Shown: positions 18,106-50,861 of the stretch, piece after piece
Position numbering within the stretch: position 1 is the stretch's first letter
How the letters are laid out: every line of letters starts with the position of its first letter
Source: Thermohalobaculum sediminis
GTDB taxonomy: Bacteria; Pseudomonadota; Alphaproteobacteria; Rhodobacterales; Rhodobacteraceae
Assembly: GCF_023487995.1 (NCBI RefSeq)
Contig: NZ_JAMFKN010000003.1
Location: 248,001-312,000, forward strand
DNA length: 64,000 nucleotides
Direction: 5' to 3'
The notes under the pieces: generated by a model
The model's input: the letters and a program-made list of their open reading frames with translations, nothing else
The model's database searches: none
Told to the model about the DNA's origin: nothing
Program-made: the position numbers and the translations under genes

Positions 18106-18762
18106 TCAGCGGCCCCCGGCGGGCACGGCGGCTCCGTTCCACCCGGACCCGAGCCGGAACAGCCGGCGCAGGCAGGCGCGCCCATTCAGGGCCGCCTCCT
18201 CGACCAGCGTCAGGGTGGTCGGCCAGGGCGCGCGGATCCGGCCCGCGACCTCGCCCTCGCCAAGGCTCAGGGTCGCGCCGAACTTCGCCGCGAGCTTCTG
18301 CATCCGGCGGTTTCCGACCATGCACGCCATGTGGACCGAGCCGACGCACCGGTTGCGCGCCAGCACCAGCGCCTTGCGCATCAGCATCACGCCGAGGCCG
18401 CGGCCCTGGAACGCGCGCTCGATGCTCATCGCGAGGTCGGCCTCGCCGGTATGGGGATCGGGATGCACCATCAGCTCGACCGCGCCGCGCAGGGTGCCGT
18501 CGACCTCGCAGCCCAGGATCCGGGTCCGCGCCCAGTCGATCATGGCGCAATGGCGCCGGATCGCGGCATCGTTCAGGTCGCCGCAGAAGCGCATCCGGCG
18601 GTCATGCCCGGCGAGCCGAAGGAAATGCGCCTCGAGCGCGGCGAGATCGTCGGGGCCCAGCGTGCGGATGTCAGCCCGCGGTGGGGGAAGAATCTGCGTC
18701 GTCGGGGCGGGAGGCACAAGCGAGGCGTGCCAGCCCTTCGGACCGATGGCGGTGGAACACAT
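18106..18762 (-). CDS. GNAT-family N-acetyltransferase
   Basis: 218 aa. After a Pro-rich N-terminus, the GNAT fold begins at about residue 30. The acetyl-CoA pyrophosphate loop is AFQGRGLGVMLMRKAL (QGRGLG at 119-124), preceded by the beta-strand region GEADLAMSIE. A perfect GGAGG lies 6 nt before the ATG. Upstream is a leader nearly 70% identical to that of a small ORF at 50.7 kb (see separate entry), so the gene belongs to a shared regulatory class. Substrate unknown. Confidence 0.88.
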   Translation of the reverse strand: MCSTAIGPKGWHASLVPPAPTTQILPPPRADIRTLGPDDLAALEAHFLRLAGHDRRMRFCGDLNDAAIRRHCAMIDWARTRILGCEVDGTLRGAVELMVHPDPHTGEADLAMSIERAFQGRGLGVMLMRKALVLARNRCVGSVHMACMVGNRRMQKLAAKFGATLSLGEGEVAGRIRAPWPTTLTLVEEAALNGRACLRRLFRLGSGWNGAAVPAGGR

Positions 18763-18845
18763 GGAAGACCTCCGTCGCGGTTCGCGTCACGTCCATCTTC
18801 CTCCCGGCGCAGGGGTCTCGGCGCCCCTCGTTTTGCACTGCACAA
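18763..18845 (-). promoter_or_regulatory. Conserved leader, copy A (upstream of the GNAT gene)
   Basis: Read on the minus strand this has, in order, a TGC-repeat element, CTGC, GGGAGGAAGA, GTGAC, then GACGGAGGTCTTCC directly before the ATG. Aligned without gaps from the start codon, 47 of 68 bases match the leader at 50667-50745. The TGC element also matches after a 2-nt gap. GGAGG sits 9 nt before a GTG (18790), giving a possible overlapping leader ORF of 39 codons (18671-18790) in another frame. Whether it acts at DNA, RNA or translation level is open. Confidence 0.6.
18831..18845. promoter_or_regulatory. TGC-repeat element, PhaR-site-like, copy 1
   Basis: TTTTGCACTGCACAA is a near-palindromic TGCA repeat. 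PhaR, the repressor of polyhydroxybutyrate granule genes in Paracoccus and Rhodobacter, recognises TGC-rich dyads of the CTGC-N3/4-GCAG type. Three similar elements lie at 50.1-50.8 kb. The assignment to PhaR is inference. Confidence 0.4.
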
Positions 18846-18976
18846 CGCAGGTGGGGCGGCAGCCGGCACAGGTCAAGGAGCGCGTGGCGCGCGACTGCGA
18901 CGCGGCGATGCAGGGCTGCAACGGTCACGAGACCGCCCCCCGTTCTGGCCGCGCCACGGCGATTCGGGCTGCGCCC

Positions 18977-19005
18977 TTGTTGCGTCGCGGCGGAACCGCT
19001 ATGTT
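18977..19005 (+). promoter_or_regulatory. Candidate sigma70 promoter for the rsfS-rlmH run
   Basis: TTGTTG, a 17-bp spacer and TATGTT (4 of 6 consensus). The predicted start is near 19012, about 60-80 nt before rsfS. It sits in the 329-bp divergent spacer between the GNAT gene and rsfS; apart from this and leader A the spacer shows nothing else. Confidence 0.4.
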
Positions 19006-50118: not shown

Positions 50119-50147
50119 CCTCTAGCTTGCGGTGCGCCATGCTGCAA
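50119..50147 (-). promoter_or_regulatory. Candidate promoter for sucCD
   Basis: On the minus strand, TTGCAG, a 17-bp spacer and TAGAGG, with a predicted start about 115 nt before sucC. Both boxes match only 3 of 6 consensus bases. The TGC-repeat element at 50138-50162 overlaps the -35 box, which would suit repression. Confidence 0.3.
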
Positions 50148-50162
50148 CTGCACAATGCACCC
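50138..50162. promoter_or_regulatory. TGC-repeat element, PhaR-site-like, copy 2 (sucC side)
   Basis: The site contains CATGCTGCAACTGCACAATG, three phased TGC(A) units. Its reverse complement closely matches the elements at 18831-18845 and 50751-50769. PhaR recognition is inferred from the TGC-dyad character. Confidence 0.4.
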
Positions 50163-50456: not shown

Positions 50457-50666
50457 TCAGCCCGCCAGACGGCGGCGGCGGAACCTCAACGTGGCGCCTG
50501 AGATCTGTCCGCGCACCGCTAACGCGCCTGCACGCAGCCACCGCGCGAATGCCTCGGCCCGAAGGCGCTGGCCCTCGCGGATCGCCGCGTCGATCACCTC
50601 GGGGCTGATGCGAGGGATATCGCCCGCCTCGCGGGCGCGGATCTGGTCGATGGTCGGTCTGCTCAT
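50457..50666 (-). CDS. Small 69-aa protein of unknown function
   Basis: The ATG at 50666 has GGAGG 6 nt upstream. The protein is helical and very basic at its C-terminus (LRFRRRRLAG). The segment IREGQRLRAEAFARWLRAGA recalls short Rhodobacterales proteins with an (A/E)-LRAEA-x-LR motif, a tentative likeness. Its leader is nearly 70% identical to that of the GNAT gene at 18.1 kb, which is the best argument that it is expressed. It lies between sucC and mdh, in the same direction. Confidence 0.65.
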   Translation of the reverse strand: MSRPTIDQIRAREAGDIPRISPEVIDAAIREGQRLRAEAFARWLRAGALAVRGQISGATLRFRRRRLAG

Positions 50667-50745
50667 GGAAAACCTCCGTCACACGATGTGTCACGGGCGT
50701 CTTCCTCCCGATGCAGCGGACGTGGACCGTCTTTTTGCGCTGCAC
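50667..50745 (-). promoter_or_regulatory. Conserved leader, copy B (upstream of the 69-aa ORF)
   Basis: Order on the minus strand: GTGCAGCGCAAAA, CTGC, GGGAGGAAGA, GTGAC, and GACGGAGGTTTTCC directly before the ATG. It aligns base for base with 18763-18830 from the start codon upward. The internal GTG (50694) is 28 nt before the main ATG in both copies, in another frame, and has GGAGG 9 nt upstream in both. Confidence 0.6.
50732..50745. promoter_or_regulatory. TGC-repeat element, PhaR-site-like, copy 3
   Basis: TTTTTGCGCTGCAC is nearly identical to TTTTGCACTGCAC at 18831 and holds the same place relative to leader B as that element does to leader A. It would sit at the transcription start of the candidate promoter at 50750-50778. 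Confidence 0.4.
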
Positions 50746-50749
50746 CCTG

Positions 50750-50778
50750 AATTTGTGCATTGCAGCATGAGAGATCAA
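50750..50778 (-). promoter_or_regulatory. Candidate promoter for the 69-aa ORF
   Basis: On the minus strand, TTGATC, a 17-bp spacer and CAAATT. The predicted start is near 50743, giving a leader of about 77 nt that contains all conserved blocks of leader B. Confidence 0.35.
50751..50769. promoter_or_regulatory. TGC-repeat element, PhaR-site-like, copy 4
   Basis: ATTTGTGCATTGCAGCATG lies in the spacer of the candidate promoter at 50750-50778. Its reverse complement begins CATGCTGCAA, as does the element at 50138. Bound protein here would block RNA polymerase. Confidence 0.42.
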
Positions 50779-50861
50779 GTCCAAACGGGGCGGGAACATG
50801 CATGGCGCTGTTGCGCGCGATGCATGGCGGGACCGGGCGCAGCGGCCGGCCCTAACGACGA

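Follow-up and report, generated by a model that had tools for sequence, protein, structure and literature searches.

Two genes lying 32 kb apart in one 64,000-nucleotide stretch of the Thermohalobaculum sediminis genome (the window) raise the question of why mRNAs for non-homologous proteins should begin with similar leaders. The first encodes a GNAT acetyltransferase of 218 aa (18106..18762, minus strand; Pfam Acetyltransf_1, E 4e-10) and the second an arginine-rich protein of 69 aa (50457..50666, minus strand). The original prediction placed the leaders at 18763-18830 and 50667-50734, anchored on the start codons; we found them there, on the minus strand, directly upstream of the ATG codons at 18762 and 50666. 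It had counted 47 identities in 68 ungapped positions; the ungapped match stands, but the recount is 45/68. A TGC element beyond this match aligns past a gap of 2 nt as claimed, and both leaders have a GTG codon that precedes the ATG by 28 nt and is itself preceded, at 9 nt, by GGAGG. Shuffled sequences had been proposed as a control for chance, and 30 base-shuffled GNAT leaders scored 35-41 at their best places against 45/68 for the real pair, while no other ungapped placement of the real GNAT leader on either strand of the window exceeded 39. When the 84-nt GNAT leader was compared by blast with the 4.31-Mb genome, 16 matches were returned at E up to 10, with the leader itself followed by the copy before the 69-aa gene (E = 3.9e-6) and the next match at 0.048. 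A spaced pattern search found the two leaders and no third place. The leader duplication is real, and the resemblance is more than chance.

The two proteins had been called unrelated, and the genes are non-homologous; the 69-aa protein turned out to be a remote relative of the RSP_7527 family. Profile-profile comparison of this protein and its orthologue with nine RSP_7527-family proteins gave an hhalign probability of 95.1%, and both missed the NCBIfam cut-off of the family (15.4 and 12.2 against 26 bits). Compared with the family, the 69-aa protein is longer and has an arginine-rich C-terminus; it contains 15 arginines and its K+R minus D+E is +8. A true RSP_7527-family match is present elsewhere in the genome of the window (39.6 bits), and 49 of 149 genomes of the bacterial family have such a match. 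In R. sphaeroides, RSP_7527 has an RpoHII-dependent promoter, its 3' UTR yields the UdsC sRNA, and the sRNA from this mRNA falls under heat stress (PMC9779115).

We searched for orthologs in 61 genomes, that of the window plus 60 relatives. A single close orthologue of the GNAT protein, with 73% identity, was found in Thermohalobaculum xanthum, all other matches being at 38% or less, and the 69-aa protein has one orthologue in the same species (57% identity) and a weak match in one further genome. T. xanthum M0105, a Paracoccaceae member of Rhodobacterales, carries the leader before both orthologous genes. A want of copies in relatives had been named as evidence against a shared element; T. 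xanthum has both copies, and no further relative does. The gene neighbourhoods also agree. In the window the 69-aa gene lies between malate/lactate dehydrogenase and succinyl-CoA ligase genes (Pfam), and in T. xanthum the end of a malate dehydrogenase gene precedes it (sequence read by eye); RsfS, SPOUT methyltransferase and iPGM genes adjoin the GNAT gene in the window (Pfam), and in T. xanthum SPOUT methyltransferase and iPGM genes (Pfam) and an RsfS-like frame, read by eye, stand beside it. Since both T. xanthum genes carry the leader and their neighbours agree, the leader was most likely duplicated before the two species diverged.

Between the two species the leader of the 69-aa gene is identical at 85 of 90 positions from -90 to -1 and at 36 of 60 from -150 to -91, while the first three 60-nt coding blocks of the gene show 40, 48 and 37 identities of 60; the leader is better kept than the protein (57%). 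The leader of the GNAT gene retains 38/43 positions from -43 to -1, 35/47 from -90 to -44 and 17/30 from -120 to -91, and its first three coding blocks retain 44, 32 and 43 of 60. We also noticed that the near-perfect conservation of the 69-aa leader does not stop at the start codon but takes in 14 or more coding nucleotides (ATGAGCAGACCGAC; 50653-50666), and that the leader of a DUF1127 gene (L113, L114), compared by eye, likewise looks well kept between the two species.

The part of the leader next to the start codon is predicted to fold into a hairpin, P2, of 39 nt, which ends at the ATG and occupies 18763..18801 before the GNAT gene and 50667..50705 before the 69-aa gene (both minus strand). 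Its outer stem pairs GGAAGAN with GTYTTCC directly 5' of the ATG, and inside it a CGT/ACG pairing is followed by a GA bulge, a four-pair stem and a three-base loop. The GNAT leader has GGAAGAT/GTCTTCC outside and CGT-(GA)-CGCG / CGCG-ACG inside, and the 69-aa leader has GGAAGAC/GTTTTCC and CGT-(GA)-CACA / TGTG-ACG. Among the leaders the four-pair stem occurs as CGCG/CGCG, CGCA/TGCG and CACA/TGTG, and in the outer stem of the T. xanthum 69-aa leader one A-U pair has become G-U and one G-U pair A-U. The Shine-Dalgarno sequence GGAGG (18769..18773 and 50673..50677, minus strand) lies partly in the internal loop of P2. The conserved blocks of the original prediction, GGGAGGAAGA, GTGAC and GACGGAGGTNTTCC, are real, but they are the two arms of one hairpin; since GGGAGGAAGA and GACGGAGGTNTTCC hold the arms of P2 and GTGAC is its inner stem and bulge, the hairpin explains them. 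CGGGAGG is invariant across the four leaders, and its GGGA, just 5' of P2 (18802..18805, minus strand, in the GNAT leader), stays unpaired in each of the four predicted folds, which makes it a possible toehold.

All 14 pairs of P2 are kept in all four sequences, that is, in two genes and two species, with 3 pairs changed on both sides. In a slid-partner control, 34-57% of cells paired and 0-1 pairs were changed on both sides. The column-shuffle control was mixed: 10 of 500 shuffles reached the observed percentage paired plus covariation score, 62/500 the both-side changes and 353/500 the further pair types. When the same substitutions were placed at random, as many P2 pairs were kept in 0.0007 of trials for the paralogues and in 0.020 for the GNAT orthologues; for the 69-aa orthologues, which differ by 2 changes, the value was 0.56, so that this pair by itself gives no support. 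With two species only, the independent changes in P2 are few. The folding z of P2 against shuffles was -2.5 and -4.7 for the GNAT and 69-aa leaders of the window and -2.5, -4.7, -2.5 and -4.0 over the four leaders; the minimum-energy fold of both 69-aa leaders has slightly different pairing in the inner part.

By prediction and comparison, all four sequences have a conserved stem that covers the ribosome-binding region as far as the start codon. In the predicted fold at 37 C the spacer to the ATG is fully paired, with the Shine-Dalgarno core left 38-60% unpaired. To free the final 11 bases ahead of the ATG would cost a predicted 13.0, 11.6, 11.8 and 11.0 kcal/mol in the four leaders, whose ensemble energies are -17.0 to -22.5. 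A second hairpin, P1 (TGCAGCG/CGCTGCA; 50710..50746, minus strand), belongs to the leader of the 69-aa gene only; it is identical in both species there (z -3.5, and -3.3 in T. xanthum) and is not common to the GNAT leaders, whose corresponding region folds no better than shuffles (z +0.7, +0.5). The TGC element was also considered as an arm of a shared P1 and rejected, as the joint fold breaks 5 of 8 predicted pairs, in one sequence each.

A profile search for further copies had been suggested. A covariance model recovered the four known sites (E 4.2e-19 to 4.7e-18), and nothing comparable was found in 394 genomes of the bacterial family, where 25 weak matches (E 1.9e-4 to 0.088) appeared in a run with stricter filters, which lose weak matches; a very diverged further copy may exist. 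Read by eye, 5 of these 25 (L035, L037, L042, L049 and L050) have an ORF of more than 35 aa at the start-codon position of the model. One of them, L037, from another genus, has a 21-bit P2 match that ends exactly at the ATG of a gatC-like ORF (translation read by eye). Three other genomes from the genus, including one at 85% completeness, gave no match to the model or matches at E 0.27 and above. A pattern scan of contigs returned 15 stretches, of which 2 are from T. xanthum and the other 13 scored at most 19.7 bits or gave nothing at E up to 1, and the P2 model gave nothing over 14.3 bits on 30 RSP_7527-family loci and 6 phasin loci. Rfam had 0 matches at the gathering score in the whole window, and with permissive settings 18700-19000 and 50600-50850 each yielded 2 weak matches, none over the hairpins. 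A plasmid origin was rejected, the 69-aa leader being without a match in the plasmid collection, and so was a phage origin, the exact hairpin pattern being absent from the viral contigs searched. Among the papers listed on such leaders and on the genus, no account of the leader was noticed, which is not proof of absence.

Upstream of the hairpin the leaders share two further elements. All four leaders have TTGA in identical alignment columns, as CTTGA at 18873..18877 in the GNAT leader and 50775..50779 in the 69-aa leader (minus strand). It may serve as a -35 element, and in the form CTTGA it is reminiscent of heat-shock promoters. The TGC element is a palindrome like TTGTGC-N3-GCACAA, lying in the GNAT leader at 18831..18845 (TTGTGCNNNGCACAA with 1 mismatch), and a pattern scan placed a distal copy with 2 mismatches at 50753..50767 and a proximal one with 3 mismatches at 50733..50747 in the 69-aa leader. 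The window holds no excess of boxes at up to 3 mismatches (10 against an expected 15.2); just two boxes there have fewer than 3 mismatches, and each belongs to one of the two leaders. Across the four leaders the best sites match 9-11 of 12 bases, and at 4 of the 6 phasin genes of the two genomes they match 10-12 of 12. In each genome one phasin gene is preceded by the full 12/12 box in two copies and a second by a box of 10-11/12; the third phasin pair has only 8/12, so that 2 of 6 phasin genes are without a good box. The box is also enriched upstream of RSP_7527-family genes, with TTGTGCNNNGCACAA-like matches of at least 9 bases in 8 of 27 loci (30 loci, L083-L112, less 3 short ones) against 15 of 384 control stretches, the pattern having been chosen after some phasin and RSP_7527-family promoters had been viewed. 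The cores of published PhaR motifs are YGCRNYGCR and GCN3GC, and sites rich in TGC are described for Paracoccus denitrificans and R. sphaeroides (PMC12542648, PMC10888616). Judged by its sequence, the TGC element is probably a PhaR (PHB-responsive) operator and a part of the leader separate from the hairpin. A further TGC-rich block (atgctgcaactgcac...) was seen at about 50139-50160, ahead of the minus-strand succinyl-CoA ligase gene, and in T. xanthum too; it is another possible PhaR-type site.

We propose, with a probability of roughly 0.6, that the leader is a lineage-restricted operator which masks the ribosome site of two mRNAs and which came from a duplicated promoter-plus-leader with a probable PhaR operator upstream. 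A segment of roughly 120 bp would have been duplicated before the split from T. xanthum, its copies now heading the GNAT acetyltransferase gene and the 69-aa RSP_7527-like gene. Transcription would start near the TGC palindrome, and if this is a PhaR operator, transcription would increase as PHB granules withdraw PhaR. The mRNA is predicted to fold into P2, whose 3' arm would contain the entire spacer to the ATG and some of the Shine-Dalgarno sequence; with the ribosome site covered in this manner, translation would stay low until P2 is opened, or would be tuned by a factor which recognises P2 with its invariant GA bulge and the unpaired GGGA. The same leader pair is kept in the sister species, which makes joint translational control of the two genes probable. 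The central claim of the original prediction, a shared post-transcriptional element, is supported by the predicted hairpin over the ribosome-binding site and by compensatory changes across two genes and two species. We infer that masking lowers translation and that a common trans factor acts on both mRNAs, possibly an RNA-binding protein or an sRNA using the invariant GGGA and the bulge. The prediction had offered a small RNA or a protein as a possible partner, but none was found: PF02599, sought as a sign of CsrA, matched neither of the two genomes at E 0.01 (3 of 14 control genomes), and no CcsR-like CCUCCUCCC motif occurred near 10 DUF1127 genes. Control by CsrA is therefore unlikely.

If a small RNA is the partner, a trans sRNA with an anti-Shine-Dalgarno-like stretch (UCUUCCUCCC) could invade the 5' arm of P2 from the GGGA toehold and switch on both mRNAs. 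The invariant CGGGAGG, with GGGA unpaired in all four folds, would suit such an sRNA, and Rhodobacteraceae are known to carry CCUCCUCCC-type sRNAs next to DUF1127 genes. However, the 10 DUF1127 genes of the two genomes, inspected from -300 to +900, offered scattered short CCTCCC or CTCCTCC in 5 loci and no CCTCCTCCC, and the 5' arm itself differs in the 69-aa leader of T. xanthum (GGGAGGGAAA), so we consider this mechanism unlikely.

It is rather unlikely that the upstream GGAGG and GTG (18788..18790, minus strand, in the GNAT leader) form a leader start at which a ribosome would open P2 and gate, or compete with, the main start. An overlapping leader ORF was part of the original prediction, and what survives of it is the GTG with GGAGG 9 nt upstream, kept in 4/4 leaders; the overlapping GA bulge, moreover, is invariant without a pairing reason. 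The frame that follows is poorly supported, as it runs for 39 codons in the GNAT leader and for 190, 34 and 56 in the others with no conserved end, its codons in the inner stem and loop vary between leaders in line with the pairing, and the stem largely explains the conservation of CGTGAC.

Equally, we think it rather unlikely that only DNA was duplicated, so that promoter and operator are what counts, with the hairpin carried along or arising by accident in a purine-rich leader. The similarity does take in the TGC operator and the TTGA element, and between the 69-aa orthologues the region from -90 to -44 (44/47) is as conserved as the hairpin (41/43). The compensatory changes in P2 argue against this, as do the GNAT orthologues, which keep the hairpin best (38/43, as compared to 35/47 and 17/30 further upstream). 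An RNA thermometer, which a hairpin over the ribosome site, the CTTGA element and the RpoHII-dependent promoter of RSP_7527 might suggest, is very improbable, since P2 is predicted not to melt within 25-65 C, its spacer staying 95-100% paired over that range.

Returning to the masking operator, a more specific form of it is attractive as a candidate but speculative, and in full we judge it quite unlikely: the arginine-rich 69-aa protein might itself bind P2, through the GA bulge and the GGGA flank, in its own and the acetyltransferase mRNAs, and so control itself autogenously within a minimal two-gene translational regulon, born by operator duplication and placed under PHB-responsive transcription. 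If the masking operator is real, the two species hold a compact natural translational regulon which arose by the copying of a leader before an unrelated gene, with both copies kept, and the leader pair would allow the birth of post-transcriptional regulons to be tested. It would also hint at what the small, widespread proteins of the RSP_7527 type do, and at a possible tie to PHB storage.

Among known systems, PhaR (AniA) operators are the probable counterpart of the DNA element: the leaders have the TGC-N3-GCA palindrome found at 4 of 6 phasin genes, but this comparison accounts for that element only and not for the hairpin. The hairpin comes closest to the leader hairpins that sequester ribosome sites, such as phage coat-protein operators and ribosomal-protein leaders, which serve autogenous or global translational control. 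Unlike these, P2 stands before two non-homologous genes in two species only and is without an Rfam family match. Like these, it is short, ends at the start codon, has the Shine-Dalgarno sequence in or near it, and combines a conserved bulge with compensatory changes in its stem.
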